Source: Thiohalobacter thiocyanaticus
GTDB lineage: Bacteria > Pseudomonadota > Gammaproteobacteria > Thiohalobacterales > Thiohalobacteraceae
Reading direction: 5' to 3'
NCBI RefSeq assembly: GCF_002356355.1
Contig: NZ_AP018052.1
Location: forward strand, 1,550,001 to 1,614,000
Length of the DNA: 64,000 bases
In this document: positions 1-16,810 of the stretch, piece after piece
Position numbering within the stretch: position 1 is the first letter of the stretch
Layout of the letters: every line of letters begins with the position of its first letter
The notes under the pieces: model-generated
Told to the model about the DNA's origin: nothing
The model's input: the letters and a program-made list of their open reading frames with translations, nothing else
Database searches by the model: none
Program-made: the position numbers and the translations under genes

Positions 1-1
1 C

Positions 2-628: not shown

Positions 629-639
629 ACGCAGATGCA

Positions 640-722
640 GTAGGATGGGTGAAGCGAAGCGCAACCCATCGCCGGGCGGCATGATGATGGGTTACGGCGC
701 GTTGCGCCTTCACCCATCCTAC
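640..722. repeat. Dispersed hairpin repeat, family R1 (GTAGGATGGGTG / CACCCATCCTAC)
   Basis: Inverted arms GTAGGATGGGTG and CACCCATCCTAC enclose a GC-rich centre. It lies inside the flagellar operon, between fliG and fliH. Four more copies occur in this window (2817, 41368, 49684, 49787). Confidence 0.85.
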
Positions 723-742
723 AGGACGTTTCGGGTACTTTT

Positions 743-1375
743 ATGAGCACCAAGGTCATTCCCAGTGAACAACTTCAGGGCATCGAGGGCTGGTCCCTGC
801 CGGACGTCTCCGACCCGCAGGCCCGCGAGGATGCCGGTACGCCCATGACGGCGCGCCAACTCGAGGAGCTGCAGCGCGAGGCGCAGGCCGAGGGTTTCGA
901 GCAGGGCCGCCGGGAAGGCCTGGCGGCCGGGCAGAAGGAGATCCGGGCGCGGGTGCACGAACTCGGTCATCTGATGCAGACCCTGGCCCGGCCGCTGGAA
1001 CAGCTGGACGAGACGGTGGAGCAGCAGCTGGTCGATCTGGTGGTACTGATCGCCCGCCAGCTGATCCGGCGCGAACTCAGGACCGAGCCGGGCGAGATCC
1101 TGGCCGTGATCCGCGAGGCCATGGCGCTGCTGCCGCTGGCCGCGACCAATGTGCGCCTGCACCTGCATCCGGAGGACGCCGAACTGGTGCGTTCCAATCT
1201 GTCCCTGAGCAGCGAGGAGCAGACCTGGCGGGTGGTCGAGGATCCGGTCATTGCCCGCGGAGGCTGCAAGGTGATGTCGGAGACATCGCAGATCGATGCC
1301 ACGCTCGAGAATCGGATCAATGCCGTGATCGCCCGCCTGCTCGGCGGCGAACGCGCCGACGACGCGGAGCAGTGA
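743..1375 (+). CDS. fliH: FliH, regulator of the flagellar export ATPase
   Basis: FliH binds FliI and keeps the ATPase inactive until it docks at the export gate and C ring (FliN). The 210-residue protein has the usual layout: a variable N-terminus, a Gln/Glu-rich helical part (residues about 35-95, with [17 protein letters not shown]), and a conserved C-terminal domain ([16 protein letters not shown] ... [15 protein letters not shown]). Length fits the family. The stop is one base before the GTG of fliI, which implies translational coupling. The ATG at 743 has only a weak ribosome site because repeat R1 sits immediately upstream. Confidence 0.93.
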
Positions 1376-1376
1376 C

Positions 1377-2750
1377 GTGAGCGTGGCCAGCCTCGATCCC
1401 AACCGCAACCCCCTGTGGCAGCAGCGCCTGGGGCGCTACAGCGAGCGCCTGGGCGAGGGCGTGCCGCTGGTGGTCGAGGGCCGGCTGACGCGCATGGTCG
1501 GCCTGACCCTGGAGGCGGTCGGCTGCCAGACCGCCATCGGCGGGCGCTGCCTCATCGTCAATCCGGACGGCAGCGAGATCGAGGCCGAGGTGGTGGGCTT
1601 CGGCGGCGAGAAGCTCTATCTCATGCCCATCGGCGATCTGCAGGGGCTGGCGCCCAACGCCCGGGTGATTCCGACCAACCGGGCCTGTGAGGCGCCGGTG
1701 GGGCCGCATCTGCTCGGGCGGGTGCTAGACGGCGCCGGCCGGCCGCTGGACGGGCGCGGTCCCTTGCAGGTCGAGGAGCGCATGCCCATCACCGGCCGCT
1801 TGATCAACCCGCTGGCGCGTGCGCCCATCCGCGAGCCGCTGGATGTGGGCGTGCGCTCCATCAACTCGCTGCTTACCGTCGGCCGCGGCCAGCGCATGGG
1901 CCTGTTCGCCGGCTCCGGCGTGGGCAAGAGTGTGCTGCTGAGCATGATGACGCGCTATACCAACGCCGATGTCATTGTGGTGGGTCTGATCGGCGAGCGT
2001 GGCCGCGAAGTGGTGGAATTCGTGCAGAACAACCTGGGCGAGGAGGGCCTGGCCCGCTCGGTGGTGGTCGCCACGCCGGCCGACACCTCGCCGCTGATGC
2101 GCATGCACGGCGCCATGCTCGCCACCAGCATCGCCGAATATTACCGCGACCAGGGCATGCAGGTGCTGCTGCTGATGGATTCGCTCACCCGTTTCGCCCA
2201 GGCCCAGCGCGAGATTGCCCTGGCCATCGGCGAGCCGCCGGCGACCAAGGGGTATCCGCCTTCGGTGTTCGCCAAGCTGCCGCAGCTGGTCGAGCGCGCC
2301 GGCAACGGCAAGCCCGGCGGCGGTTCCATAACAGCGTTTTACACTGTTCTGGCCGAGGGCGATGACCAGAACGACCCCATCGCCGATGCCGCCCGTGCCA
2401 TCCTCGACGGCCACATCGTGCTGTCACGCGAGCTGGGCGAATCCGGGCATTATCCGGCCATCGACATCGAGGCTTCCATCAGCCGCGCCATGACCGAGAT
2501 CACCGACGACACCCACATGCAGACCGCGCGCCGCTTCAAGCAGATATACTCGACCTATCAGCGCAACCGGGATCTGATCAATGTCGGGGCTTACCAGAAG
2601 GGATCGGATCCGCGGGTGGACGAGGCCATCCACTACCATCCGCGGCTGATGCAGTTCCTGCGTCAGGGCATGCACGAGCGGGTCTCGCTGGTGGAAAGCC
2701 TGGACGACCTGGATCAGCTGCTGGGCAATGCCCTGGCCACGACCCAGTAG
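1377..2750 (+). CDS. fliI: FliI, flagellum-specific ATP synthase-like ATPase
   Basis: FliI is the cytoplasmic hexameric ATPase that helps unfold and deliver export substrates to the flagellar type III gate, together with FliH and FliJ. The 457-residue protein carries Walker A GSGVGKS near residue 180, the conserved [13 protein letters not shown] stretch after it, the Walker B region [17 protein letters not shown] near residue 265, and the ATPase C-terminal domain. It is related to the F1 beta subunit. It starts with GTG one base after the fliH stop. Length and motif order are those of canonical FliI. Confidence 0.97.
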
Positions 2751-2803
2751 TCGTTGGGGACGATGTGTTACGCTACCGCTTCACCCAGTCTGCGTGTTAT
2801 GCC

Positions 2804-2819
2804 TGGCACACTGGTTGTA
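2804..2819 (+). promoter_or_regulatory. Possible sigma-54 promoter upstream of fliJ
   Basis: TGGCAC (2804-2809), five bases, then TTGTA (2815-2819). This is one base off the -24/-12 consensus TGGCAC-N5-TTGCA. The -12 element overlaps the left arm of repeat R1, so the match could be chance. Confidence 0.3.
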
Positions 2820-2898
2820 GGATGGGTGGAGGCGCGAGCGCCGTATCCCATCGCCTGGTCCCGCCACGATGGGTTGCGCTGTGCTTCACCCATCCTAC
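2817..2898. repeat. Dispersed hairpin repeat, family R1
   Basis: Second copy of the GTAGGATGGGTG / CACCCATCCTAC repeat, placed between fliI and fliJ. It again separates two genes of the same flagellar operon. Confidence 0.85.
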
Positions 2899-2926
2899 GC
2901 GCTCAACAAAAAACGAATAAGATTCA

Positions 2927-3382
2927 ATGACCCGCTCCAAACGCATCCAACCGGTCGTCGATGTCGCCGAACGCCGGGAACAGGAACAGGCCCGGCGCCT
3001 CGGGGCGGCCCAGCGCGAACTGGAACAGCAGCGTCAGCAACTCGATCAGCTGATCCTGTATCGCGATGAATATGCCCGCCAGTTCGAGCACAGCGGCAAC
3101 ACCGGTCTGTCCGTTGCCCGGCTGCAGGACTATCGCGTCTTTCTCTCCCGCCTCAATCTGGCCATCGATCAACAGCGTGAGCGCATCGCCCGGAGCCAAC
3201 AGGCCTGCGAGGAACAGCGCCGGCACTGGCTGGCCTCGCGCACCCGGGCCCAGGCCCTGGACAAGGTGGCCGACCGCTACCGCGAAGAAGAACACCAGGC
3301 CCGCGAACGCCGGGCCCAGTCCGAAAGCGACGAGTTTGCCCTGCAGCGCCATCAGCGCAACAAGGACCGGGATCGGTCCTGA
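2927..3382 (+). CDS. fliJ: FliJ, flagellar export chaperone/ATPase stalk
   Basis: FliJ is a small antiparallel coiled-coil protein that sits in the FliI ring like the gamma subunit of F1 and links it to FlhA. The 151 residues are rich in Glu, Gln and Arg with heptad-like runs throughout (EQARRLGAAQRELEQQRQQL, then IARSQQACEEQRRHWL), and there is no membrane segment. Length (about 150) and position after fliI fit. Sequence conservation in this family is low, so the call rests on coiled-coil character and synteny. Confidence 0.88.
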   Translation: MTRSKRIQPVVDVAERREQEQARRLGAAQRELEQQRQQLDQLILYRDEYARQFEHSGNTGLSVARLQDYRVFLSRLNLAIDQQRERIARSQQACEEQRRHWLASRTRAQALDKVADRYREEEHQARERRAQSESDEFALQRHQRNKDRDRS

Positions 3383-3387
3383 AGTGC

Positions 3388-3520
3388 AAGAGCGCCACGG
3401 AAAACACGCAATACACAGAAAGGTTTTAACCCAAAAGCTTCGATTTCATCGCCGGGCGCGTAGCGTCATGGCGATGACAAACCAAACTTCCGTGCTTTCC
3501 GTGTATTCCGTGGCGCTCTT
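3388..3520. repeat. Dispersed paired repeat, family R2 (AAGAGCGCCACGG ... CCGTGGCGCTCTT)
   Basis: Left arm with AGCGCCACGGAAAACACG and right arm with GTGTATTCCGTGGCGCTCTT, separated by about 80 unrelated bases. Other pairs lie at 36607, 42518, 58628 (variant) and 60337. Confidence 0.85.
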
Positions 3521-3532
3521 GATCTGACCGGT

Positions 3533-3548
3533 TGGCACGTTACTTGCC
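3533..3548 (+). promoter_or_regulatory. Sigma-54 promoter of fliK
   Basis: TGGCAC (3533-3538), GTTAC, TTGCC (3544-3548) fits the -24/-12 pattern with correct spacing. It lies about 40 bases before fliK, as expected for a FleQ-controlled class of flagellar genes. Confidence 0.75.
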
Positions 3549-3589
3549 CCATGGAGGGGACAAGGTCTGATTAGCCAAGGAGAACGCAC

Positions 3590-4816
3590 ATGGCCGAACT
3601 GCCGGTAACACCCGTCAAGGTTCAGTCCGCCCCCGCCAGGGCCTCCGGCCAGGGCCCGGCGAGGCAGTCGGAAGCCTCTGATTCCGATAATAAATCCACC
3701 AGTTTTTCCAGCGAACTGAACAAGCGCATGGATGCCGGCAAGGCCGAGCGCGACACCGGGGCAAACAACAGCGGCAAGGCCGCAGCGGCAGGGCGGGGGG
3801 AAAGCTCCGACCCCGCCGAGGGCAAGAACTTGCCGGTCGGGGACCGGGCCGGCCAGGCCGGCACCGACGATGCCGAGTCCGGCGATGCGCAGAGGCAGGC
3901 CGGACTGGCCGGCGGCCTGCTGGCCGACGGCGAAGGCCGGACGGCTGCAACCGAAACCGGTGAAGAAACCGAGGTTTCACCGCTGGCCCTGGCCCAGATG
4001 CTGCTTGATGCGGCGCCCGCCAGGGGGGCTGAAGCGGCCGCCACCCGACCGGGCAGGGGCGAGGCCGGCGCTCGCCTGCTCACTCAGCCGGGCGCTCAAC
4101 CGCAGCTTGCCCAGGGTGCGCAGGACGCCCTGCAGGAGGCCGAATTGTCGACTGATCTGTTCCGCCAGTTCCTGGCCCGCGGCGGTGAGCAGCGGTCGGA
4201 GACGGCCGCGGCCCAGCTGGCTCAACTCGCCGCACGCAACCCGGACGCGTCCGGCCTGCAGCGGCTGGCGTCGGCCGAGGTCATGCCCAATCTCACCCCC
4301 TCCGCCCAGGGCATGGTGCAGACCGCCCAGCTGAACCCGACCGCCAGCCAGCCGGCCCTGCCCGGCACCCAGATCCCGCTGCCCATGCAGCATTCGCAGT
4401 GGGGCGATGCCCTGAGCGAGAAGGTGATGTGGGTGGCCAACCAGAAGCTGCAGGGGGCGGAGATCAAGCTCAACCCGCAGCACCTGGGCCCGATCGAGGT
4501 GCGAGTCTCGTTGAACAGTGATTCGGGCCAGTCGCAGGCCCAGGTGCACTTCACCGCCCAGCACGCAATGACGCGCGAGGCACTGGAAGCCGCCATGCCG
4601 CGGCTGCGTGAGATGTTCACTGCCAACGGCATGGATCTGGTCGACGTGAATGTCTCCGACCGTTCCTTCGCCGAACAGGATCAGGCGTCGGCCCAGGCGC
4701 AGCAGCAGCAGTTCATGGCCGGCATGGGCGAGGCGGATGAGGGCGGTCAGAATCCGTCAGGAATGTCGGCAAAAATTACACAATTACCCACTGGAACGCT
4801 GGATCTGTTCGCCTGA
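3590..4816 (+). CDS. fliK: FliK, flagellar hook-length control protein
   Basis: FliK is exported and measures hook length; its C-terminal domain then switches FlhB specificity from hook to filament proteins. The 408 residues show a long low-complexity Ala/Gly/Glu/Gln N-terminal region and a conserved C-terminal domain from about residue 285 to 365, with LNPQHLGPIEVRVSL near residue 294 and LREMFTANGMDLVDVNVSD after it. It follows fliJ and has its own sigma-54 promoter. A second FliK-like gene lies at 34704-36053, so two such proteins exist here. This one is in the canonical operon position and is the likely main hook ruler. Confidence 0.93.
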   Translation: MAELPVTPVKVQSAPARASGQGPARQSEASDSDNKSTSFSSELNKRMDAGKAERDTGANNSGKAAAAGRGESSDPAEGKNLPVGDRAGQAGTDDAESGDAQRQAGLAGGLLADGEGRTAATETGEETEVSPLALAQMLLDAAPARGAEAAATRPGRGEAGARLLTQPGAQPQLAQGAQDALQEAELSTDLFRQFLARGGEQRSETAAAQLAQLAARNPDASGLQRLASAEVMPNLTPSAQGMVQTAQLNPTASQPALPGTQIPLPMQHSQWGDALSEKVMWVANQKLQGAEIKLNPQHLGPIEVRVSLNSDSGQSQAQVHFTAQHAMTREALEAAMPRLREMFTANGMDLVDVNVSDRSFAEQDQASAQAQQQQFMAGMGEADEGGQNPSGMSAKITQLPTGTLDLFA

Positions 4817-4927
4817 CTTCCGGTTGCAGAATGCAATCGGGCGACGGTCAATGCAGAGTGTGCAGGATGGAATAAATGTGATAACTTAAACGTATATCCA
4901 TAATAACAACAACCCGAAGACCAGAAG

Positions 4928-7189
4928 ATGGCCGGAAGCAAAAAGCAGCGGAACAAGACTGCGAATACGCATTCCACCCCGAACGCGCAAGCCGGTTCAC
5001 GGGAACGCGAACTTCGCAAGGACTTCCACTATGTGCTGCAGATGGACAGTGCAGAGTCGGAAGTGCTCCTCCGTTATCAGACCCTGCTCAGCCAGGGCGC
5101 GGCGCAGTTCGCCGAGTCCTACTACAACTATCTGTTCGACAACCCCAGCATCGCCGAGATCCTCTATGCCTTCGAGAACGACGGCGGCGATGTCGGCGAC
5201 CTGGTGCGCAGCCAACTCAACCAGCTGCTGCGCATCATCGGGCCGCTGGAAGACGGCGACCTGATCCGCATCGGCCACCTGCATCAGCAGCGCGGCGTCA
5301 AGCCGGTCTGGCTGATCGGCGCCTACCGGCTGTATCTCAATCATCTGCTCCAACTGATCGCGCACATGCCCGGGCTGGAGCCCGATGAGCGCAATGTCCT
5401 GGAGAGCGCGCTGGTCAAGCGCGTTTTTCTGTTCATGGGCCTGATGATCGAAGGTCATCTGGATCGCCTGCAGCAGACCCGGGAGGCCGAGCGCACGCAG
5501 CAGGACGGCGAGCTCGAACGCATGCAGCAGCTGCTGGCCAACATTCCGCAACAGGTCTGGTCCTATGATGTCACCGCGGCCCAGCTGCACTACCTCAACC
5601 CTGCCGCCAGGGCCCTGTGCAACGGCAACGGCAAGGGCGAGGGGCCGATCCCCTGCCTGATGGCCGTGCACGAGGATGATCGCAGCAAGGCTGAGGCCGC
5701 CTGGCAGCAGGCCCTGGACGGCCGCCCGGCCGAGGTCGAGGTGCGGCTGCAGGGGCGGGGGCAGTCTGAGAGCTGGCGCCGGTTGTCCCTGTATCCCTTC
5801 AAGCAGCGGCGGCGGGTGGTGCGCATCGACGCCATGCTGGAGGATATCAACCGCCAGCATGAGACGCTGGAACGGTTGGAGCACCTGGCCACCACCGACG
5901 AACTGACCGAACTCGCCAACCGCACCCTGTGGCAGGACCGGGTCAACCAGGCCCTGGCCCAGGCCCGGCGCGAGGAGCATCAGGCCGTGGTGCTGATGCT
6001 GCTGGACCTGGATCATTTCAAGACCCTGAACGACACCCTGGGCCACCAGGCCGGGGACGAACTGCTGCGCCAGGTGGCCGAGCGTGTATGCGGCGTACTG
6101 CGTGATTCCGATACCCTGGCCCGGCTGGGCGGGGACGAGTTCGGCGTGCTGATGCCGGCAGTGGAGGATCCGGTCCGCGCCGGCGAACAGGTCGCCGGCA
6201 AGATCCTGGAGTGCTTCAAACGCCCCTATCACTACAATGATCAGCCGCTGTATTTCACCACCTCCATCGGCATAGCCCATGCGCCCCGCCACGGCGGTGA
6301 CTTCGACACCCTGCTCAGCCGGGCCGACATCGCCATGTACGAGGCCAAGCGCAATGAACTGGGGTTTGCCTTCTTCGAGCCCGGCGCGGCCGCTGCCTCC
6401 AGCGCGCACCTGCAGTTCTCCACCCAGCTGCGTCACGCCCTGGAGCGCAACGAGTTCGAACTGCATTATCAGCCCAAGGTGGACATCGCCTCACATGAAC
6501 TGTGCGGCGCCGAGGCGCTGCTGCGCTGGAAGCACCCGGAGCAGGGGCTGGTGCCGCCGGGCGGCTTCCTGGACATGGCCGAGCAGATCGGCCTGATGGT
6601 ACCCATCACCAACTGGGTGCTGGTCACCGCCCTGCGCCAGTGCAAGGCCTGGCAGCAGGCCGGCGTCACCATCCCGGTCTCGGTCAATCTCTCCACCCGC
6701 ACCTTCCAGACCCCGCGACTGCTGGAGCGCATCGAGTGGGCGCTGCAGGAGGCCGGTGTGTCCGGCGACTGCCTGGAAGTGGAGGTCACCGAACAGACCC
6801 TGATGAAGGATCTGGACCACGGCGCCGAACTGCTGCGCAGGCTGCACGATCTCGGCGTGCGCGTGGCCATCGACGACTTCGGCACCGGTTATTCCTCCGT
6901 CTCGCGGCTGCGCCATCTGCCGCTCGACACCCTCAAGATCGACCGCTCCTTCCTCTCCGAACAGGCCGCCCGCGAGGACGACCCCGTCATCGTGCGCTCC
7001 ATCATCGACCTCGGCCACAACCTGGGCCTGCAGGTGCTGGGCGAAGGCGTGGAGAACGACACCGCCTGGAACCTGCTCGAATCCCTCGGCTGCGATGCCG
7101 TGCAGGGCTATCACGTCAGCCAGCCGCTGTCCGATCAGGGCTTCTCCAGCTGGATTCAGGATGGTGGCTGGTCCAACCGTATTCAGTAA
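4928..7189 (+). CDS. Globin-coupled GGDEF-EAL cyclic-di-GMP protein
   Basis: This predicted cytoplasmic protein of 753 residues makes and/or degrades cyclic di-GMP. In order: a globin-like sensor (about 30-185), a short PAS-like region (about 195-305), GGDEF and EAL. In the globin part, HLHQQRG near residue 117-123 aligns with the region of the proximal heme His in DosC-type sensors (candidate His119). The GGDEF motif is intact (RLGGDEFGVL near residue 398), and the product-inhibition motif RDSD sits five residues before it. The EAL half keeps EALLRW (about 528), EVTE, DDFGTGYSS, the LKIDRSF lysine and GEGVEN. Both activities therefore look possible. Next to the flagellar operon, a role in oxygen- or redox-linked motility control is likely but inferred. 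Confidence 0.88.
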   Translation: MAGSKKQRNKTANTHSTPNAQAGSRERELRKDFHYVLQMDSAESEVLLRYQTLLSQGAAQFAESYYNYLFDNPSIAEILYAFENDGGDVGDLVRSQLNQLLRIIGPLEDGDLIRIGHLHQQRGVKPVWLIGAYRLYLNHLLQLIAHMPGLEPDERNVLESALVKRVFLFMGLMIEGHLDRLQQTREAERTQQDGELERMQQLLANIPQQVWSYDVTAAQLHYLNPAARALCNGNGKGEGPIPCLMAVHEDDRSKAEAAWQQALDGRPAEVEVRLQGRGQSESWRRLSLYPFKQRRRVVRIDAMLEDINRQHETLERLEHLATTDELTELANRTLWQDRVNQALAQARREEHQAVVLMLLDLDHFKTLNDTLGHQAGDELLRQVAERVCGVLRDSDTLARLGGDEFGVLMPAVEDPVRAGEQVAGKILECFKRPYHYNDQPLYFTTSIGIAHAPRHGGDFDTLLSRADIAMYEAKRNELGFAFFEPGAAAASSAHLQFSTQLRHALERNEFELHYQPKVDIASHELCGAEALLRWKHPEQGLVPPGGFLDMAEQIGLMVPITNWVLVTALRQCKAWQQAGVTIPVSVNLSTRTFQTPRLLERIEWALQEAGVSGDCLEVEVTEQTLMKDLDHGAELLRRLHDLGVRVAIDDFGTGYSSVSRLRHLPLDTLKIDRSFLSEQAAREDDPVIVRSIIDLGHNLGLQVLGEGVENDTAWNLLESLGCDAVQGYHVSQPLSDQGFSSWIQDGGWSNRIQ

Positions 7190-7282
7190 TACCTCCAATG
7201 AATTTCAGGGCGTGTATCTGCCCACCAATACTGCGAAGTGGTTGTTAAGAAATTTGAAAGTGCGTTATCGGCACATAGCTGA

Positions 7283-7508
7283 CTTACGTACCAGTCCAAA
7301 TGGGATTTTACCTACCATCAATATGTCGCTGAATTAGCCGGTTGGAAGGTAGATTTAGCAGCTTATTACTATTCTGGCTACGCAAGCCAATCAAGGAAAT
7401 ACTGTTGATTCATATATGTTTTTGGGTAAATATAACCAACATAATGCGCCACGATATGCGGAATCGGAAGTATTGCATGATAGGCCGAATCCGCACTATT
7501 GCGAATGA
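7283..7508 (+). pseudogene. Remnant of an unknown coding sequence with one frameshift
   Basis: One frame reads sensible protein from 7283 to about 7393 (SKWDFTYHQYVAELAGWKVD, then LAAYYYSGYASQS). The frame one base earlier continues from 7392 to the stop at 7506-7508 (QGNTVDSYMFLGKYNQHNAP, then RYAESEVLHD). Together they give about 75 residues of aromatic-rich, non-random sequence without a start. I do not recognise the family. It is probably the 3' end of a decayed gene, either a former cassette or a gene cut by the island boundary. The remaining bases 7190-7282 hold nothing I can identify. Confidence 0.45.
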
Positions 7509-7530
7509 TACGAATTCCGCCTAATACACC

Positions 7531-7537
7531 GTTATGC
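7531..7537 (+). other. attC core site (R', GTTATGC), left edge of cassette A
   Basis: GTTATGC; recombination would fall between G and TT. It is complementary to GCATAAC at 8351-8357, the R'' of the same cassette. Only a short stretch of the preceding attC or attI is recognisable. Confidence 0.65.
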
Positions 7538-7566
7538 CAGAGTGGCTTCAGAAGAGACGAGACAAC

Positions 7567-8211
7567 ATGACACTTACAGTTGAAGCATTGAATATTCTAT
7601 TGCTTCTATTGCCGGGATTCCTATCCGGTCAAATATTCTATTCGTGCTTTAGATTTGGAGAAATATCAATATCGCGTAGGATACTAGATGCAATTCTTTT
7701 TACCTTTGTTATCTACCTCGTTGTTTCAACATTTACCGTTTGGGAGCCACTCGCACAAGTTGCATCTACGGAAAGTGGCTTGTCCTTTGATTTCTCTGCT
7801 AGCAAAACCCTAATTTGGTTGTCTTTATCAACTGTAGGGCTTATACCTACGGTCGTCGGATTCATATATTTTAATGACCATGTTCATAAAGTGCTTCGTA
7901 AACTAAAGATCACTACAAAAACGTCTCGTGCCAACACCTGGAATGATACCTTCCAAACACAAGACCGCTACGTGATAGTTACTCTCAAGGATGGGAGGAG
8001 AATCAGAGGTTACCCAACGATGTTTTCTACGGACCCAGAAGAAGGCTTCGTATACCTTTACAACCCTGCTTGGGTGAATGACAACAAATCCGATATAGAA
8101 GAACCCGACTATATCGAGTCGAATTGCCACGGGTTCCTGGTAAATAGAGATAACCTTGATTTGCTTGAATTCACATTGGACCCCGGAGAGACACTTACCG
8201 CCAAGGCGTAG
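7567..8211 (+). CDS. DUF6338 family membrane protein (cassette A)
   Basis: A 214-residue protein of unknown function. The N-terminus is hydrophobic (LNILLLLLPGFLSGQIFYS, residues about 8-26), followed by two more likely membrane segments (about 40-60 and 85-105). The C-terminal soluble part has YVIVTLKDGRRIRGYP and a charged tail. This layout, with LLLLPGFL near the start and a late VTLKDGR-type strand, matches DUF6338 as I know it. I chose ATG 7567 because the earlier in-frame ATG at 7534 lies inside the attC core. Codon use is AT-rich, unlike the flagellar genes. DUF6338 genes occur in variable regions, so a role in defence or stress is possible but unproven. Confidence 0.65.
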   Translation: MTLTVEALNILLLLLPGFLSGQIFYSCFRFGEISISRRILDAILFTFVIYLVVSTFTVWEPLAQVASTESGLSFDFSASKTLIWLSLSTVGLIPTVVGFIYFNDHVHKVLRKLKITTKTSRANTWNDTFQTQDRYVIVTLKDGRRIRGYPTMFSTDPEEGFVYLYNPAWVNDNKSDIEEPDYIESNCHGFLVNRDNLDLLEFTLDPGETLTAKA

Positions 8212-8216
8212 GAGGG
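8210..8216 (+). promoter_or_regulatory. Strong ribosome binding site of the 42-residue ORF
   Basis: AGGAGGG, four bases before ATG 8221, partly overlapping the stop of the upstream gene. It is the best Shine-Dalgarno in the island and argues that the tiny ORF is translated. Confidence 0.65.
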
Positions 8217-8220
8217 ATAT

Positions 8221-8349
8221 ATGAAAGACCCTAAACTAGAAAAACCAGCTGATCCAAGAGATAACGTCAAAAGCGAAGTTAAACCGATACGGTACGAGAA
8301 ACCGAATGAGCGGCCAAAGCCAACACCTAATCCTCCGAAGAAGAAATAA
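8221..8349 (+). CDS. 42-residue Lys/Pro-rich microprotein (cassette A)
   Basis: A short ORF nine bases after the DUF6338 gene, preceded by AGGAGGG. The product is very polar and basic (MKDPKLEKPADPRDNVKSEV at its start, PTPNPPKKK at its end), with no hydrophobic segment and probably disordered. It ends two bases before the R'' site, the typical gene-to-attC spacing, so it lies wholly inside the cassette with DUF6338. No family is recognised. It may be a partner or regulator of the membrane protein; this is inference from coupling only. Confidence 0.55.
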   Translation: MKDPKLEKPADPRDNVKSEVKPIRYEKPNERPKPTPNPPKKK

Positions 8350-8350
8350 G

Positions 8351-8394
8351 GCATAACGAGGCGCGCAACCCGGACGGCTTCGCCGCCGGTTCTG
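8351..8394 (+). other. attC of cassette A, 5' half (3' half lost)
   Basis: R'' is GCATAAC (8351-8357). A hairpin AACCCGGACGGC / GCCGCCGGTT follows, whose two strands match only if extra bases stay unpaired, as in attC sites. The L'/R' side is replaced by the palindromic element that begins at 8395. Confidence 0.65.
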
Positions 8395-8516
8395 GGAATC
8401 CGGGGACAGTATATCTATTTATAGGAATCCGGGGAAAGTATATCTATTTATAGCCATAGGCCATCCCTGGCGCATCATGAGAGTGATATGAATTGAGTAT
8501 ACTGTCCCCGGAATCC
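8395..8516. repeat. Palindromic element R7 copy 1, inserted in attC
   Basis: Left end GGAATCCGGGGACAGTATA and right end TATACTGTCCCCGGAATCC are inverted repeats with two mismatches. The left end is present twice (8395 and 8424). The core (GCCATAGGCCATCC ... GCGCATCATGAGAG) is shared with copy 2 at 10064. Ends with GGGGACAGTATA are, to my knowledge, found near REP-associated tyrosine transposases; no transposase is present here. Confidence 0.75.
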
Positions 8517-8595
8517 ATAACGAGCGGGTCAAAATCGCTCTCTTCGGTCGCTGGGACCTCGCTACTCGCTCGACCCCTTACCCAAAACGTTGGGC
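8517..8595 (+). other. Second attC-like site, ending in GTTGGGC
   Basis: ATAACGAGCGGG at the left resembles an R'' side whose first base was lost to element R7, and GTTGGGC (8589-8595) is a consensus R' (GTTRRRY). Internal GGGTC / GACCC can pair. It may be all that is left of a deleted cassette between A and B. Confidence 0.55.
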
Positions 8596-8625
8596 GCAGT
8601 TGAAACAATCTGTGAGAATTGAACG

Positions 8626-10053
8626 ATGAGACTTGAAGACTTAGGTATAACAATTAAGGATCTCGACTTCGGGGGCGTTGACGCTGAATCGGATCGCCGG
8701 TTAGCAGACTATTTCATTGATACGCCACAAGTAGACGAGGCACTGAGTTTTCGCAGCGCTCACTTCATCGGGCGAAAGGGGTCGGGAAAATCGTCAATAT
8801 TTACACAGCTTCCAAGATTGGCAGTAGAACGGTATGGGCCCGGTTGTCGGGTGAGCTTGATGACCCCCGATCAGTACGCTTGGGGCGCTCTACGTCAATA
8901 TGAAGAGAGAGGTCTGCTGCCTGAACAGGCGCACTCAAACGCTTGGAAATTTACCATTGCTGTAGATGCCGCAGCCGCGGCGCTAGAAACGCCTGTCGAC
9001 TTGCATGATGAAAATGCGCGTAAGGCTCTTGAGCAGATTCGCACCTTTGTGGCCAAAAACTTTGGAGATGACGCGCCGACGCCGACGACTACGGCACAGC
9101 GTTTGCTGAAAGGGTTGGAGGCATTCAATCTTGAGGCTTTCGGATTTGGAGTCGGCTTTGAACGATCAAAGCAGGAGATGCCCCTGACACCACAGGTTAT
9201 TGACTTGCTTCTTAATGCGGTAGAGAAAGTTTGTGGCCGGGTGGGCGTACTTGTTGCAGCAGATAGATTGGATGACTCATGGGATGGCTCCGATGTATCA
9301 CAGAGCCTTCTCATTGGATTGATGAAGGCCACAAAAGAAATCAACGACCGATTTTCTCATCGCGATGGAACGGGGCTTCACGTCGTTACTTTCCTTAGAT
9401 CAGATATCTATCAAGGGCTCCGATTTGACGACAAAGACAAACATCGAGCAGTAGAAGAGGAAATCAGTTGGAATGTTGATCTGCTTAGAGATCTAGTCAA
9501 CGCGCGATTGCCTGATGGTTTAACGGTCGATGATATATTTGAAGAGGGCGATATGCGCGGAAGTATCGCGCCATTCAACTACTTGGTGAAGCGAACTTTT
9601 CTTCGGCCTAGAGAAATAATTCAATTCTTGCAGTTGTGCCAAAAGCGCACGCCCGCAGGGGAAACTGAGATCGCAAAAGATACTATCCGCGACGCGGAAG
9701 AACTATATAGTGCTTGGAAGGTGGATGATTTGAAACAAGAATATCGCCGCGTTTTCTCCGATTTTGATGATTTGCTTGAAGCTCTTAGGCAAACTCAGCA
9801 TCGCTTCGACTCAATTGAAGAATTTTCCGCTGCGTTGAAAGAGAAGGCGCCACGATTGGTTGAATCGCATGGCGATAGAGAATTAGTGCAAAGATTATTT
9901 GATGCGTCAATCATTGGTGTTCGTATGCGTAATGCAGGTGTTGCGCGCTTCCGCTGTGAAGACCCTGATCTTCTGCTTCCCTCCACGGGCTCGGTATACA
10001 TTCATCAGTCTCTGTACAAAGGATTGAACATCAGCGAAAAGCGGGCCTCATAG
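8626..10053 (+). CDS. P-loop ATPase, Sll1717-like family (cassette B)
   Basis: A 475-residue soluble protein. Walker A GRKGSGKSS is at residues 49-57, and a Walker B-like strand VGVLVAADRLDD has Asp at about 213 and 216-217. The N-terminal DYFIDTPQVDEALS, followed by the P-loop about 20 residues later, is typical of the P-loop ATPases annotated as the Sll1717 family, whose function is not known. The rest is helical and charged with no membrane segment. The gene starts 36 bases after the attC core (TTGGGC) and is AT-rich. In such islands these ATPases often accompany defence genes, but no nuclease or other effector domain is visible in this protein. No partner gene lies in the same cassette. 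Confidence 0.65.
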   Translation: MRLEDLGITIKDLDFGGVDAESDRRLADYFIDTPQVDEALSFRSAHFIGRKGSGKSSIFTQLPRLAVERYGPGCRVSLMTPDQYAWGALRQYEERGLLPEQAHSNAWKFTIAVDAAAAALETPVDLHDENARKALEQIRTFVAKNFGDDAPTPTTTAQRLLKGLEAFNLEAFGFGVGFERSKQEMPLTPQVIDLLLNAVEKVCGRVGVLVAADRLDDSWDGSDVSQSLLIGLMKATKEINDRFSHRDGTGLHVVTFLRSDIYQGLRFDDKDKHRAVEEEISWNVDLLRDLVNARLPDGLTVDDIFEEGDMRGSIAPFNYLVKRTFLRPREIIQFLQLCQKRTPAGETEIAKDTIRDAEELYSAWKVDDLKQEYRRVFSDFDDLLEALRQTQHRFDSIEEFSAALKEKAPRLVESHGDRELVQRLFDASIIGVRMRNAGVARFRCEDPDLLLPSTGSVYIHQSLYKGLNISEKRAS

Positions 10054-10063
10054 GAGTCCAGAT

Positions 10064-10155
10064 GAGTCCAGGGACAGTATACCTATTTATAGCCATAGGC
10101 CATCCCTAGCGCATCATGAGAGTGATATGAATTGAGTATACTGTCCCCGGAATCC
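10064..10155. repeat. Palindromic element R7 copy 2
   Basis: The same core and right end (TATACTGTCCCCGGAATCC) as copy 1, in the same orientation. It has a single, more diverged left end (AGTCCAGGGACAGTATA). It starts about ten bases after the ATPase stop, exactly where R'' of cassette B (expected GCCCAAC) should be. Confidence 0.75.
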
Positions 10156-10178
10156 CACACTTAGCTCAGCCGTTATAC
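10156..10178 (+). other. 3' remnant of cassette B attC with core GTTATAC
   Basis: About 16 bases of attC arm followed by GTTATAC (10172-10178). The core is exactly complementary to GTATAAC at 12021, so it marks the start of cassette C. The R''/L'' half of this site is missing and is occupied by element R7. Confidence 0.65.
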
Positions 10179-10196
10179 AAAAGAAGACAAGGAGCT

Positions 10197-12017
10197 ATGA
10201 GAATAAAGTCAATCCATGCGCAAAACACTCAGCCCGTCGAGTTATTCGCCGTCAATGATTTGTCTGATCTTGTCGTAATCGCCGGCCCAAACGGCATTGG
10301 TAAGACGAGATTAATTTCCGCATTTATTGCTTTTTTTCAAAACCCCAATGCAGGACAAATAAAATTTGAAATTCAATCTACATCAAAAGCTGAAGAAGAG
10401 GCATGGGGTAAGCGCTCTTTAAATACAGAAAATGCGCAAGATTCAAATTTACTTCGAACAACGCTGCAACAAAATCGTAGGCGTCGAAATTTTAGCGGAA
10501 GCGTTCTATATTACGAAAGTAACAGAACCATACAGAATATTAAGCCATTGTCCTTTCAGTGGGAAATGGCCGACCCCTGGGAAGAACAAGTATCGTGGAA
10601 TTTCGGATTCGGTGGCTTAGCAGGAAGGTTTCAAGACACGCTGCACGCAATCTTCAAAAAGATACAAAACCAAAAAACTTCAATCGCAAATCGAGCCATT
10701 AGCCTGAGGCAACAGGGGCATGATTCGATGAATCTGGAATTCTCAGATCCGTTAGAGCCGTTTAGAGATGCGTTTTCAAAGCTCTTGGGGCCGAAGGAAC
10801 TAGTCAGGGCAGATCTACAAGCCAACACCCTTAGATTTAGACACAACGATGTCGAGTATGGCATTAACGCATTGTCGTCCGGTGAGCGTGAAGTTTTGAA
10901 TATCGCTTTTGACTTTCTTCTCAGAAGACCGTCAGATTGCATAATATTTTTTGATGAACCTGAGCTTCATCTACATCCCGAGCTATCAACGAAGCTAATA
11001 AGCACGTTGAAAAGCATAGGGGAGAATAATCAGTTTATATTGTGTTCTCATTCTCCAGATATTATCTCATCATCTTTAGATGATACGGTCATATTTTTAA
11101 CACCTAAAAAGGAAGGTCAAGAGAACCAAGCCGTGTTATTAAAGGCGGATGATGAATCAACTGAAGCATTGAACCGACTTGGTCATTCTATCGGCGTTGT
11201 TTCATTAGGTAAGAAAATCGTTTTGATTGAGGGGACAGACGGTAGCTTAGATAAGCAAGCGTATTCCCACATTTTAAAAAATCGCTTTCCGAATCTTGTC
11301 TTACTGCCTAGTGGCGGGAAGGGTAATCTCAGCGCGTTCGACAAAGTGGCGGATTCTGTACTAAATAAGACACTTTGGGGGATCGACTTTTATATGCTGG
11401 CTGACCGTGACAGCATTGTTAACAGTGACGAGTTCGAAGAGAGAGCGCCAGGCAGGTTTAGAACGCTTTCGAAATATCATCTCGAAAACTACTTTCTCGA
11501 CTCGGATGTGCTGGCTGCTGTATTCACCAAGATGGAACCGTCAAATTCTTGGTTATGCGATCCTGTTGCAATAGAGTCAAGGCTCACTGAAATAGCTTTA
11601 AATCATCTCCCGTATGCAGCCACCCTGATTGTCGCAAACGAAAGAAGAAGGATGGCTGGGAATGTCGATATCATGGTCAAAGGTTGCCAAGGAAAGAGCA
11701 AAGATGACTTAATTCAATTTATCCGCGATAAAAGTAATGTAGAAACCATCCGAATCAATGAAGCTCTAAACGGAGATTCACTCGCAGATCACTTGTCCGA
11801 AGTGTTTGATCAGCTAGAAAAGTCAGTTAATGATGGCTCTCAAGCATGGAAGTCAGATATCCCAGGAAAAGCCATCTTTAAAACATTTTGCAGCCAAGCA
11901 AGCATGCCGTCTGGGCGGCTGAAAACTCTTTACATTCAACAAACGGAGGAAATGGATAACAACCCATTTGAAGAACTCGTTGATTTATTTAAGGGGTTTG
12001 CAGAACATGAAGCCTAA
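10197..12017 (+). CDS. AAA/ABC-type ATPase fused to TOPRIM (DUF4435-like) domain; candidate merged PARIS protein
   Basis: A 606-residue soluble protein. The ATPase half has Walker A GPNGIGKT (residues 30-37), an ABC-type signature ALSSGEREVLNIAF (about 223-236), Walker B CIIFFDEPELHLHPE (about 247-261) and a switch His in LCSHSPDIISS (about 283). The second half opens with IVLIEGTDG (acidic residue Glu345), continues to LLPSGGKGN, and has an Asp pair in LADRDS (Asp403, Asp405). Glu plus DxD is the TOPRIM metal site. ATPase plus TOPRIM occurs in OLD nucleases, Gabija GajA and PARIS, where AriA and AriB (DUF4435) can be fused. No helicase gene follows, which argues against Gabija. The anti-phage role is inferred. 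It starts 25 bases after the attC core. Confidence 0.72.
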   Translation: MRIKSIHAQNTQPVELFAVNDLSDLVVIAGPNGIGKTRLISAFIAFFQNPNAGQIKFEIQSTSKAEEEAWGKRSLNTENAQDSNLLRTTLQQNRRRRNFSGSVLYYESNRTIQNIKPLSFQWEMADPWEEQVSWNFGFGGLAGRFQDTLHAIFKKIQNQKTSIANRAISLRQQGHDSMNLEFSDPLEPFRDAFSKLLGPKELVRADLQANTLRFRHNDVEYGINALSSGEREVLNIAFDFLLRRPSDCIIFFDEPELHLHPELSTKLISTLKSIGENNQFILCSHSPDIISSSLDDTVIFLTPKKEGQENQAVLLKADDESTEALNRLGHSIGVVSLGKKIVLIEGTDGSLDKQAYSHILKNRFPNLVLLPSGGKGNLSAFDKVADSVLNKTLWGIDFYMLADRDSIVNSDEFEERAPGRFRTLSKYHLENYFLDSDVLAAVFTKMEPSNSWLCDPVAIESRLTEIALNHLPYAATLIVANERRRMAGNVDIMVKGCQGKSKDDLIQFIRDKSNVETIRINEALNGDSLADHLSEVFDQLEKSVNDGSQAWKSDIPGKAIFKTFCSQASMPSGRLKTLYIQQTEEMDNNPFEELVDLFKGFAEHEA

Positions 12018-12020
12018 TGT

Positions 12021-12101
12021 GTATAACAAGCCCGTAAACTCGGACGTATTTTTCGCTCGCTACGCTCACTGCAAATACGCCGGTTACGGCTGGCGTTAAT
12101 G
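12021..12101 (+). other. Complete attC site of cassette C
   Basis: R'' is GTATAAC (12021-12027) and R' is GTTAATG (12095-12101). Inner arms pair CCGTAA (12032) with TTACGG (12084), CGG with CCG, and CGTATTT (12045) with AAATACG (12073). An A at 12044 and a few others are left unpaired on one strand, the hallmark of an attC hairpin. The loop is about 21 bases. Confidence 0.78.
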
Positions 12102-12315
12102 TTCGCACCAGGTCGGTGGCTGAACTCTCGTTGGTACTATCTTTCACGCTTGAACTCAATTATACTCCCGGCACGTAGCGCCATCCGGTCGGCGCATAGC
12201 TTCGCGGCCGTCTCCCTCCCCGAAAGACTTATCCTCGAACATTCAACCCAATCATGACTCCACCCTGACCGGCCCCGCGGAACCTGCGGGTAGGCTGGAC
12301 CTGGAGCAGATAAAT
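12102..12315. other. Gap after the cassette array, leader of rhlE
   Basis: No gene seen. A -10-like TATACT lies at 12161-12166 without a convincing -35. The start of rhlE is supported by GGAG about nine bases before ATG 12316. Base composition returns from AT-rich to GC-rich in this stretch. Confidence 0.4.
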
Positions 12316-13629
12316 ATGTCATTTGAGACCCTCGGCCTCATGGCCGAACTCCTGCGTGCCATCGATTCGCAGGGCTATACCACCCCGACCCCCATCCAGC
12401 GCCAGGCGGTGCCGGTGATATTGGAAGGCCGCGATGTGCTGGCCGGCGCCCAGACCGGCACCGGCAAGACCGCTGCCTTCACGCTGCCCATGCTGCAGCT
12501 GCTCAGCCAGCGGCCGCGCAAGGGCAGGGCGCCGCGCGCCCTGGTGCTCACTCCCACCCGGGAGCTGGCGGCGCAGGTCGGTGAGAGCGTGGAAACCTAC
12601 GGTGCACACCTGAAGCTGCGCTCCGCCATCATCTTCGGCGGGGTGGGGATCAATCCGCAGATCGAGGCCCTGAAGCGCGGCGTCGACATCCTGGTCGCCA
12701 CGCCGGGCCGGTTGCTGGATCATGCCGGCCAGGGCACGGTGGATCTGTCCGCGATTGAGATCCTGGTGCTGGACGAGGCCGACCGCATGCTGGACATGGG
12801 CTTCATCCACGACATCCGCCGGGTGATGAAGCTGCTGCCGAACAAGCGTCAGAACCTGCTGTTCTCTGCCACCTACTCCAACGAGATCAAGCGTCTGGCC
12901 GACGGCCTGCTGCACCGGCCGGCCCTGATCGAGGTGGCGCGGCGCAATACGGCCGCCGAGACCGTCACCCAGCATGTGTATCGGGTCGACAAGGACGCCA
13001 AGCGCGATCTGCTGATCCACCTCATCGATGCCGGGCAGTGGTCCCAGGTGCTGGTGTTCACCCGTACCAAGCACGGCGCCAACCGTCTGGCCGAGCAACT
13101 CAATCGGGCCGACATCGAAGCGGCCGCCATCCATGGCAACAAGAGCCAGAGTGCCCGCACCCGGGCCCTGGCCGGGTTCAAGGACGGCAGCGTGCGGGTG
13201 CTGGTGGCGACCGACATCGCCGCCCGCGGCCTGGACATCGACCGCCTGCCGCATGTGGTGAATTACGAACTGCCCAATGTGCCGGAAGACTATGTGCACC
13301 GTATCGGCCGTACCGGTCGGGCCGGTGAGGAGGGCGCGGCGATTTCACTGGTCGGCGCCGATGAAGCCAAGCTGCTCAAGGATATCGAGCGGGTTCTGAA
13401 CAAGACCATCCCGGTGCTGCCCATGCCGACGTTCGAGCCGAAGGTGCTGAAAGCGGCCCCCCGACCGGAGCAGAGGTCCAGGGCCACTCCCGGCAATAAG
13501 TCGAAGGTGAAGAAGAAGCCGGCCATCAGCCGTAACGCCGGGTCCCGTGCCGGTGACAAGCCGGCGGACGGCCAGCGCAAGCGGCGCCGGCGCAATCGCC
13601 CGTCCCAGTCCCCCGGCGCTGCCCGGTAA
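12316..13629 (+). CDS. rhlE: DEAD-box RNA helicase, RhlE type
   Basis: An ATP-dependent RNA helicase acting in ribosome assembly and RNA turnover. The 437 residues show all DEAD-box motifs in order: Q motif [10 protein letters not shown], motif [55 protein letters not shown] and [11 protein letters not shown] basic, Pro/Lys/Arg-rich tail of about 70 residues follows, as in RhlE proteins of gammaproteobacteria. The N-terminal FETLGL and length fit RhlE better than CsdA or SrmB. It is a backbone gene directly downstream of the cassette island. Confidence 0.9.
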
Positions 13630-13644
13630 CAGTCTTTCCGCCCC

Positions 13645-14322
13645 GTGCGCCCCTGGACCCTGCTCGACACTGCGCAAATCCCCGGCAACGGCGGCGAGTT
13701 GCAGCTGTATCAGCGCGGCGATGAATTCTCCATCAAGCTGGTGGGGCGGGGCGAGTTGATGAGCAGCCGCGTCCATGGCTCGGAGGAGGCGCTGGCGGCG
13801 CAGACCTGCGCACGACTGGCGGACAGCCAGCGGGCACAGGTGCTGATCGGCGGGCTGGGTATGGGGTTTACCCTGGCCGCGGCGCTGCAGGCGTTGGGCG
13901 CGCAGTCACGGGTCGTGGTCGCGGAACTCGTCCCGGCGGTGGTGGCCTGGAACCGCGGCCCGCTGGCGCATCTGGCCGGGCATCCACTGGACGATGCGCG
14001 GGTGCGTGTGCAGGAGGGCGATATCGCCCGGCTGCTGCAGGCCGGGCCCCGGGCCTGGGATGCCATCCTGCTGGATGTGGACAATGGCCCCGAGGGCCTG
14101 ACCCGTCGGGAGAACGACTGGCTCTACGACACGGAGGGGCTGACGGCGGCCTGTGCTGCATTGCGCCCCGGCGGTGTGCTGGCCGTGTGGTCGGCCGGCC
14201 AGGCGCCGGAGTTTCTGCCGCGGCTGCGCAAGGTGGGCTTCGAGGCGGAGGAGGTACGGGTGCGCGCCCATGGCGCGAAGGGGGCACGCCACGTCCTCTG
14301 GTTCGGCCGGCGGGTGGATTGA
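13645..14322 (+). CDS. Spermidine synthase-like / SAM-dependent methyltransferase-fold protein
   Basis: A 225-residue protein starting at GTG 13645. It has a nucleotide-binding Rossmann motif VLIGGLGMGFTLAAAL (about 68-83), an acidic residue after the next strand (VVVAELVP), and AILLDVDNGPEGL near 135-147, as in the spermidine synthase/MnmC2-like fold. The N-terminal SSRVHGSEEALA also recalls polyamine synthases. The substrate is not clear, and many such proteins are annotated only as methyltransferase-like. It lies 15 bases after rhlE, so the two may be co-transcribed. Confidence 0.7.
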   Translation: MRPWTLLDTAQIPGNGGELQLYQRGDEFSIKLVGRGELMSSRVHGSEEALAAQTCARLADSQRAQVLIGGLGMGFTLAAALQALGAQSRVVVAELVPAVVAWNRGPLAHLAGHPLDDARVRVQEGDIARLLQAGPRAWDAILLDVDNGPEGLTRRENDWLYDTEGLTAACAALRPGGVLAVWSAGQAPEFLPRLRKVGFEAEEVRVRAHGAKGARHVLWFGRRVD

Positions 14323-14383
14323 TCCGCCCACCGCTCGGATATACTTGCACATACATGAATCAGGCAATACAGAGGCAGGACCG

Positions 14384-14932
14384 ATGGGCAATTCATTCGG
14401 CGATCAGTTGCTCAAGGCCGGGCTGGTGGACAAGTCCCGGCTGGAAAAGGCGAACAAGTCCAAACGCAAGCAGCAGAAGCTGAAACAGAAGCAGAAGGTC
14501 GAGGTGGTCGACGAGGCCGCCGTGGCCGCCGGGGCGGCGCGCAAGGCCGCGGCGGAGGCGGCGGAACGCGATCGTGAGCTCAATCGCCAGCGCAAGGCGG
14601 CCGCCGAGCGCCGGGCGATCCAGGCCCAGGTCCGCCAACTGGTGGATCAGAACCGGCTGGCGGATGCCGAGGGGGAGGTTGCCTACAACTTCCAGGACGG
14701 TACCCTGATCAAGACCCTGCATGTCACCGAGACCGTCCGCGACCGGCTGGCGCGCGGCCAGCTGGTCATCGTCCGCTTCGACGCGGGCTACGCGCTGGTC
14801 TCCGCGGGGGTGGCGGAGAAGATCGGGCAGCGCGATGCCGCCTGCATCGTCAGCCGGGCCGGGGACCGGCCGCAGGAGGACGCCGACGACCCCTATGCGG
14901 AGTACCAGGTGCCCGATGACCTGATGTGGTAG
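14384..14932 (+). CDS. DUF2058 family protein (YaiL-like)
   Basis: A 182-residue cytoplasmic protein of unknown function. The N-terminus MGNSFGDQLLKAGLVDKSRL and the long Lys/Gln/Ala-rich helix that follows (KSKRKQQKLKQKQK) are characteristic of DUF2058, as is the C-terminal part with YNFQDGTLIKTLHVTE and YAEYQVPDDLMW. ATG 14384 is chosen because homology begins there; the frame is open further upstream. The function is not established, and the basic helix could bind nucleic acid. Confidence 0.82.
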   Translation: MGNSFGDQLLKAGLVDKSRLEKANKSKRKQQKLKQKQKVEVVDEAAVAAGAARKAAAEAAERDRELNRQRKAAAERRAIQAQVRQLVDQNRLADAEGEVAYNFQDGTLIKTLHVTETVRDRLARGQLVIVRFDAGYALVSAGVAEKIGQRDAACIVSRAGDRPQEDADDPYAEYQVPDDLMW

Positions 14933-15170
14933 CGCTCAGTCCGGGAGCACCGTCCCGGGCCCTGATCACCTGAAATTCCGACTGCAACCTGCCCGCAACG
15001 CGGGCACCGGGTGCAACCGTCCCATTTGCTTCCCCGCTCATTCCACTTCCATTGATCCGGTGCCGGGAAACCGGCTGGAGGCGCGACGGAATAACGTCAA
15101 GTCTCTGTCGACCCCGGATTTTCCATTTCCAACCAATTGAATATAAATAACTAATTTTTCTTCCTGGCCG

Positions 15171-15186
15171 TGGCACAGGACTTGCT
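15171..15186 (+). promoter_or_regulatory. Sigma-54 promoter of the fliL operon
   Basis: TGGCAC (15171-15176), AGGAC, TTGCT (15182-15186): a near-perfect -24/-12 pair 38 bases before fliL, preceded by an AT-rich stretch. It most likely drives fliL to flhB under a FleQ-type activator. The rest of the gap 14933-15170 holds nothing recognisable. Confidence 0.88.
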
Positions 15187-15224
15187 TTTGCCTGTGCAGA
15201 CATTCACAGGCACAAGGTACCGGC

Positions 15225-15773
15225 ATGGCAGAAGAAGATCTCGATCTGGACGTGGATACCGCGGAGGCGGAATCCGGCGGCGGGCTGAAAATCGTCATCA
15301 TCGCCGCTGTCGTGGTGCTGCTGCTCTCCAGTGCCGTGCTGGCCGGACTCTATTTCATGGGCATGCTGGGCGGGAGCGAGTCGGCCGCCGGACAGCCGGC
15401 GGCCGCCGCAGAAGGGGCCGCGGCCGAAACCGCCGCGCCTGCAACCAGCGGCGGCCCGCTCATCTACCAGCCGCTGGAACCTCCCTTCGTCGTGAATTTC
15501 GGCCGTGAAGCCGACGTGCGCTTCATGCAGATCACCATTCAGGTGGCCGACCGCGATCCGGCCGTGATCGAGCGGATCAAGGAACACAACCCGGCCATCC
15601 GCAATGGCCTGGTGATGCTGTTCAGCAGCCAGGATCCCGAGGTGCTCAATACCCGTGAGGGCAAGGAGCAGCTGCGCCAGGACGCGCTGGAGGAAGTGCG
15701 CAGCGTGCTCGAGCAGATGACCGGCCGGGGTCGGCTGGAAAATCTGTACTTCACCAGCTTTGTCATGCAATAG
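15225..15773 (+). CDS. fliL: FliL, flagellar basal body-associated protein
   Basis: FliL is an inner-membrane protein that surrounds stator units and supports torque. The 182 residues have a short acidic cytoplasmic N-terminus, one membrane segment (about 25-50, with IVIIAAVVVLLLSSAVLAG), an Ala-rich linker (about 52-75), and the periplasmic FliL domain beginning LIYQPLEPPFVVNF, ending in NLYFTSFVMQ. Length and ending are typical. It is the first gene after the sigma-54 promoter and lies nine bases before fliM. Confidence 0.94.
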   Translation: MAEEDLDLDVDTAEAESGGGLKIVIIAAVVVLLLSSAVLAGLYFMGMLGGSESAAGQPAAAAEGAAAETAAPATSGGPLIYQPLEPPFVVNFGREADVRFMQITIQVADRDPAVIERIKEHNPAIRNGLVMLFSSQDPEVLNTREGKEQLRQDALEEVRSVLEQMTGRGRLENLYFTSFVMQ

Positions 15774-15782
15774 GGGTACTGC

Positions 15783-16790: not shown

Positions 16791-16810
16791 GTGCGTGACG
16801 GGAGACAGTA

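Follow-up and report, generated by a model that had tools for sequence, protein, structure and literature searches.

DUF6338 membrane proteins are paired with proline-rich microproteins on mobile genetic elements

Genes encoding DUF6338 membrane proteins are typically accompanied by a small gene for a proline-rich, basic microprotein and, judged from comparison of loci, the two are conserved as a unit. The pair is carried by prophages, plasmids, a Tn7-like element and integron cassettes. The original prediction concerned one DUF6338 gene coupled to a 42-residue ORF; that observation is confirmed and is broader than first described. Our preferred reading, to which we give a probability of roughly 0.45, is that DUF6338 and the microprotein make up a mobile two-part membrane module, in which the microprotein would be a ligand and control subunit and which would serve as an accessory defence or exclusion device.

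The window (the whole stretch of DNA analysed, 64,000 nucleotides) is positions 1,550,001-1,614,000 of the 3.23-Mb single-contig genome of Thiohalobacter thiocyanaticus. Positions 7190-8349 are AT-rich (42.2% G+C compared with 64.1% in the whole window), and the AT-rich island, flanked by a GGDEF/EAL gene and a DEAD-box-like ORF (the latter by ORF reading), has DUF6338 and the 42-codon ORF as its first pair. From ORF reading, used here in place of profiles, the island seems to split a flagellar cluster within positions 1-20000 of the window, with FliG/H/I/J/K-like ORFs before it and FliL/M/N/P/Q/R/FlhB-like ORFs after it. Features of the locus, numbered from the first letter of the window, are:

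7531-7537, + strand: GTTATGC, R'-like left cassette boundary (direct reading; GTTATGC also lies 5' of the gene in the relatives L002 and L003)
7567-8211, + strand: gene for the DUF6338 membrane protein, 214 aa (PF19865, 59.2 bits; the start fits the family alignment)
8210-8216, + strand: AGGAGGG ribosome site overlapping the DUF6338 stop (direct reading; TAGGAG is kept in L002 and L003)
8221-8349, + strand: gene for the Lys/Pro microprotein of 42 aa that partners DUF6338 (conservation in L002 and L003; pN against pS; family-wide counterpart)
8352-8358, + strand: CATAACG, R''-like right boundary, a left half-site followed by the repeat insertion (direct reading)
8425-8516, + strand: 92-bp repeat past the cassette end (a second copy at 10064-10155 is 95% identical)

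The match to PF19865 lies well over the cut-off (26.5 bits) and joins residues 3-206 to profile positions 3-203 of 205; by score and full coverage, the 214-aa protein is a member of DUF6338. Its stop codon (TAG, 8209-8211, direct reading) is separated by nine bases from the ATG of the microprotein ORF, which runs for 42 codons to a TAA ending at 8349. The spacing originally given for the small ORF was borne out throughout: AGGAGGG stands four bases before the ATG, the ORF begins nine bases past DUF6338 and it ends two bases before the R''-like core. A promoter and terminator scan of 7190-8630 gave no excess of sites over shuffles. Stop-codon read-through, producing a fusion as the main form, was considered and rejected: a separate ribosome site and start are present for the small ORF, and its counterparts at most other loci overlap DUF6338 or are in a different frame.

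A scan of genome contigs gave two close relatives, one in a gammaproteobacterial MAG (L002) and one in a Desulforudis MAG (L003). Their DUF6338 proteins show 79% and 66% identity, respectively, to that of the window. Each is followed, nine bases past the stop, by a 42-aa ORF, with the same TAGGAG overlap of stop and ribosome site and with R''-like and R'-like cores on both sides. The microproteins show 81% (L002) and 62% (L003) identity to that of the window, and 23 of the 42 columns, including ERPKPTPNPPK, are invariant among the three. In the small ORF, 17.5 differences between the window and L002 are synonymous and 8.5 are non-synonymous (pS 0.64, pN 0.09, dN/dS 0.06); L002 and L003 give a dN/dS of 0.18, and between the window and L003 synonymous sites are saturated. 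On these codon comparisons, the small ORF is under purifying selection at the protein level.

DUF6338 scored over the Pfam cut-off in 5/185, 20/398, 8/48 and 24/298 genomes of the same phylum, in sets that overlap. The typical partner is a proline-rich, basic ORF of 40-70 aa with few hydrophobic residues, whose start lies within about 60 bases of the DUF6338 stop on either side. With a fixed criterion, a proline-rich small ORF was found after 34 of 45 DUF6338 genes and after 2 of 118 control ORFs from the same loci, a comparison for which a Fisher value overstates independence because loci within the sets are related. Before counting, matches that scored too low for Pfam (L009-L011, L031-L036, L061-L066) and the second fragments of broken genes (L037, L038) were dropped, as were two broken or partial DUF6338 genes (L024, L025) before the 45 were assembled. 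By eye, nearly every DUF6338 gene has a microprotein and some have two to five; in genomes there are four in tandem in L046, three in L054 and two in L039. Inspected in the same way, seven of the 11 misses have a clear small ORF beyond the fixed limits (L016, L018, L020, L021, L023, L027, L040), two combine a frameshifted DUF6338 with a microprotein (L008, L060) and one runs on (L028); L022 is the sole miss for which a clear microprotein candidate was not found. Pairing is also seen in a planctomycete and in plasmids of alphaproteobacteria. Just after DUF6338 in the actinobacterial loci L163, L188 and L189, a clear microprotein was not seen. DUF6338 is rare in E. coli (5 of 5426 genomes for the query used), and the gene in the viral locus L094 had no match in a close-match E. 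coli search.

Scans of IMG/VR added 83 DUF6338 loci (37 and 46), from which two at contig ends (L083, L116) and nine with identical proteins were removed to leave 72 prophage loci. The strict criterion picked a partner at 43 of these, compared with 2/262 controls, and the relaxed criterion at 65, compared with 23/262. Among the seven relaxed misses, L124 exceeds the length limits, L154 does so with a shortened DUF6338, and L088, L105, L107 and L155 have a broken DUF6338. The seventh is L152, where the prophage copy after position 3566 has a microprotein with a premature stop beside an apparently intact DUF6338. Five microproteins stand in tandem in L084, four in L076 and L110, and three in L081, L111, L139 and L146. 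A three-sequence alignment had found no close DUF6338 relatives in viral contigs, and broader alignments then gave matches. The window protein had a single match among phages and plasmids, on one planctomycete plasmid, and the L084 protein had none among phage records. Overall, the two strict counts (34/45 against 2/118 and 43/72 against 2/262) strongly support the predicted pairing; the opposite outcome, other DUF6338 loci standing without any small ORF, was checked for and did not occur.

GC-rich DNA yields proline-rich ORFs easily, and the relaxed criterion does pick up some controls (23/262), as would be expected if the small ORF were open by chance or reflected nothing more than low-complexity DNA composition. 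The probability of this is negligible: it is contradicted by the strict controls and by a pN far under pS, low-GC loci also have the small ORF (the microprotein gene of the window is 42.6% G+C), and the products of a similar operon are reported to have been detected by mass spectrometry (PMC10433244).

That operon is from P. stutzeri ATCC 14405, where mass spectrometry found three proline-rich proteins of <50 aa, with 44 to 114 spectra, in an operon with DUF6338 (PMC10433244). There the three proteins are termed unconserved past the species and possible de novo genes; here we read them as one case of a family-wide partner, and partners throughout the family challenge the published view of them as new genes. 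Genome G750 (L054) has DUF6338 followed by three proline-rich small ORFs and is likened to the P. stutzeri operon by its layout. In our literature search, DUF6338 was named in PMC10433244 alone, and the pairing was not found reported elsewhere. The Pfam family name covers neither the partner microprotein nor the Sm-like domain described below. PMC10433244 also raises antimicrobial roles as a possibility and mentions DUF6338 domains in biosynthetic clusters, which would suit secreted or antimicrobial proline-rich peptides, or modified-peptide precursors, with DUF6338 as their exporter or immunity protein. The microproteins are indeed proline-rich and basic, with tandem variants resembling peptide arrays. 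However, no exporter, protease or modifying enzyme is prominent at the annotated loci, Cys is scarce in the microproteins (9 of 5067 residues) and the C-terminal motif is the conserved part in many of them, so we consider a peptide role very unlikely.

Two types of microprotein can be distinguished, one with GYxP repeats and one without, both tending toward PPPKK-like tails. Among 100 distinct microproteins, 75 have PP and then K or R within two residues, in the last 12, and K or R occurs among the final four residues of 91. By sequence class, the two types track two clades of DUF6338: clade A has 54 microproteins without GYxP and none with it, and clade B has 43 with GYxP and five without, in classes defined by regular expressions written after the sequences had been seen. 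Outside these counts are 10 distinct loci, comprising four in clade A, two in clade B and one unclassed at which no microprotein was picked, and three more that are unclassed. The description of the ORF as a small basic partner holds as far as it goes, but what the microproteins have in common is less their charge than their proline-rich motifs (GYxP repeats or ..RPxxPxAPPPPKK).

Profiles of the microproteins, which cover some subtypes only, gave 103 matches in 10,016 ORFs of 143 loci. By rule, 100 of these are close to the DUF6338 stop, and the remaining matches (L090, L111, L115) are on the same strand as DUF6338 and start 94-124 bases ahead of its stop. The two larger profiles have 31 of the 143 loci as rows. 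Of the 112 loci outside them, 57 matched, three of which (window, L002, L003) are the rows of the third profile. One profile searched against 298 Pseudomonadaceae genomes gave 18 matches, 15 at known DUF6338 genes (11 of these being rows of the profile itself), one at a DUF6338 ORF truncated where the locus ends and two elsewhere (E 4e-4 and 5e-4). The first of these last two (L181) is a tail resembling that of a microprotein, VRPKAPIAPPPLKN, from a genome in which no DUF6338 gene was detected, and is a possible orphan or remnant. Pfam and NCBIfam held no family for ten and eight microproteins, PHROGs gave no match for five DUF6338 proteins and one microprotein, and the microprotein alone gave no tblastn match among plasmids under the low-complexity filter.

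Broken genes bear on a toxin-antitoxin reading, in which DUF6338 would be a membrane toxin and the microprotein would neutralise it by binding its cytoplasmic domain. A small, coupled and mobile two-gene unit is what this predicts, and DUF6338 is frameshifted or shortened beside a readable microprotein in L008, L060, L088, L090, L104, L105, L107, L154 and L155, as expected if the microprotein alone is harmless. However, more breaks would be expected in DUF6338 anyway because it is about four times longer, and L152 shows the reverse case of a stop-cut microprotein with an apparently intact partner. Moreover, no known antitoxin fold was found in the microproteins with Pfam or NCBIfam, and antitoxins do not usually occur in tandem arrays of two to five. 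We regard this reading as unlikely.

Surroundings of the viral loci include an antiterminator Q-like gene, holin, endolysin and NinB (L076, L084), a single-strand binding protein and a PAPS reductase/methyltransferase (L094) and a nearby minor tail protein (L108). In L076, L081 and L084 the pair is on the other strand from its Q, lysis and recombination neighbours, a placement like that of morons. DUF6338 also lies near prophage genes in E. coli GF131, SC477 and Combat13F7 and in Pantoea pESL4.2, and is carried by Klebsiella phage pJN2-26.

Defence genes adjoin DUF6338 in seven of 18 annotated regions (L012, L156-L164 and L183-L190, with L188 devoid of annotation), a raw count given without a background rate. 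In Tn7-like cargo of Proteus penneri (L161), DUF6338 lies beside a ThsB-type TIR gene and a caspase gene. In Mesorhizobium (L186), it follows a CBASS cyclase and a 2TM SLATT effector by 10 nt. Three related Acinetobacter operons (L184, L185, L190) contain E1/E2 and/or JAB genes (by annotation in L190), with MBL and E1/E2/JAB-type genes 14 nt upstream of DUF6338. PDC-S64 is 20 nt upstream in E. coli Combat13F7 (L183) and, by annotation, a type I restriction endonuclease gene adjoins DUF6338 in Gordonia (L189). Defence neighbours were not seen in L159, L160, L163, L164 and L012, and PADLOC 2.0.0 had no family for DUF6338 or the microprotein at E up to 1. The pairs adjoin CBASS/2TM SLATT, E1/E2/JAB and TIR/caspase genes in the same direction; they are no fixed part of these systems, as most pairs stand without them. 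Positions 499-6096 of the Acinetobacter locus L190 encode, in order, a WYL protein, a metallohydrolase, a long Mov34/MPN protein, DUF6338 and microproteins, beside TniB, an arrangement suggestive of a complete ubiquitin-like defence operon with the pair as part of it.

Several loci without a defence neighbour, together with the tight coupling and near-universal pairing, would also suit a microprotein that is an assembly or stability factor, or a constitutive subunit, of a membrane complex serving the mobile element with no role in defence. Set against the patchy spread on mobile elements and the recurrence of defence systems as neighbours, this is quite unlikely. A role of the module against phages is possible, with both binding and function conjectural, and the term 'membrane effector' used in the original prediction is plausible from the three predicted helices and the defence-gene neighbours.

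Integron cassettes are one of the settings in which such a role would be reasonable, as a review (PMC12409362) reports anti-phage activity for at least 16 of 179 integron cassettes of V. cholerae. Genes for a SIR2 protein and for a NucC-like nuclease occupy the next cassettes in L002 and L003, and in the window an AriAB-like gene (10197-12017) is a further defence-type gene near the pair. Of the four sites flanking the pairs of L002 and L003, three fold as single strands at z -3.1 to -4.4, the upstream site of L003 folding poorly (z +0.74). In contrast, the attC-like flanks of the window, including 8348-8395, fold no better than shuffles (z -0.15 to -1.28), and the 92-bp repeat lies past the left half-site at the downstream site. 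The claim that the pair fills one cassette exactly thus rests mainly on L002 and L003. A cassette is only one carrier of the pair among several (prophages, plasmids and the Tn7-like element being others). The genome has an integron integrase gene (TIGR02249, 432 bits) at 2686320-2687255, about 1.07 Mb from the window, so the cassettes of the window lie away from it. The ends of the 92-bp repeat are nearly inverted (GGGGAMAGTATA and GTATACTGTCCCC); its two full copies genome-wide are both in the island, and a 23-bp piece lies about 14 kb from the integron integrase.

AlphaFold2 was applied to the window protein (28 rows, mean pLDDT 69.6) and to a homologue of the GYxP type (44 rows, 74.8). Both models have three long helices and a C-terminal barrel, with moderate pLDDT in the barrel region. 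Predicted domains of the window protein are:

7570-7872, + strand: three predicted membrane helices, residues 2-28, 35-67 and 78-102 (AlphaFold2 secondary structure)
7927-8181, + strand: predicted Sm/LSm-fold domain, residues 121-205 (VIA-align to 1i5l_B)

Insertion of the helices into the membrane is probable from their length and hydrophobicity. Compared by VIA-align with 954 of the 1000 PDB chains ranked highest by Foldseek, residues 121-205 aligned with 72 of 73 residues of 1i5l_B (Z 9.7, rmsd 1.9), and only Sm/LSm chains, at 8-25% identity, were among the 50 matches listed. The second model gave a VIA-align Z of 8.9 and a Foldseek E of 4.0e-4; a sequence search of PDB found no relative. 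DUF6338 is thus predicted to consist of three membrane helices and an Sm/LSm-fold domain. Like archaeal SmAP, spliceosomal Sm and Lsm1-8 proteins, residues 121-205 form a helix and a five-stranded barrel in the model, but in DUF6338, unlike those proteins, the barrel is joined to three membrane helices. The Sm1 and Sm2 motifs of Sm/LSm proteins contain RNA-binding residues, and these were not evident in DUF6338 alignments read by eye. In MscS-type channels, too, three membrane helices lead into a beta domain with an Sm-like fold, a possible resemblance to DUF6338, which has no alpha/beta vestibule domain. No MscS chain was among the structural matches listed, the beta domain having filled those lists. 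Both AlphaFold2 models read DUF6338 and microprotein as one chain through the intervening stops and gave no confident docking, with a pLDDT of about 36-60 for the microprotein part; with 28 and 44 rows, few of them paired, this counts neither for nor against binding.

For the two-part defence or exclusion module, we envisage that the Sm-like domain of DUF6338 is on the cytoplasmic side, possibly assembled as a ring. Its partner, the microprotein, would be a disordered chain of short motifs, either GYxP repeats or a C-terminal RPxxPxAPPPPKK, that binds the Sm-like domain and sets its state, and tandem microproteins would provide several such ligands. At the inner membrane, the module might then serve in accessory defence or exclusion, being set off when the microprotein-bound state is altered by infection. 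A more elaborate and rather improbable version makes DUF6338 a bacterial Sm-like ring that is anchored in the membrane and might be a minimal channel. Multivalent disordered microproteins with GYxP and PPPPKK motifs would hold and gate its cytoplasmic barrels. Tandem variants would be interchangeable sensors or clips for a common membrane output traded among prophages, integron cassettes, Tn7-like cargo, CBASS and ubiquitin-like operons.

The pairing gives a family so far lacking a function a predicted fold and a place in a two-part system that can be tested, and defines a class of microproteins, mostly unannotated, whose partner looks obligate. If the defence role is true, annotation pipelines miss half of a widespread module of phages, plasmids and integrons.

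Two further genes of the island may be recorded. At 8626-10053 of the window, an ORF for a 475-aa protein with sub-cut-off matches to ORC-CDC6-like and AAA_16 begins shortly past a GTTGGGC core, like a second cassette gene. At 10197-12017, a 606-aa AAA_15-type ATPase matches the PADLOC AriAB model (E 1.3e-62) and is a single-gene PARIS-like candidate.
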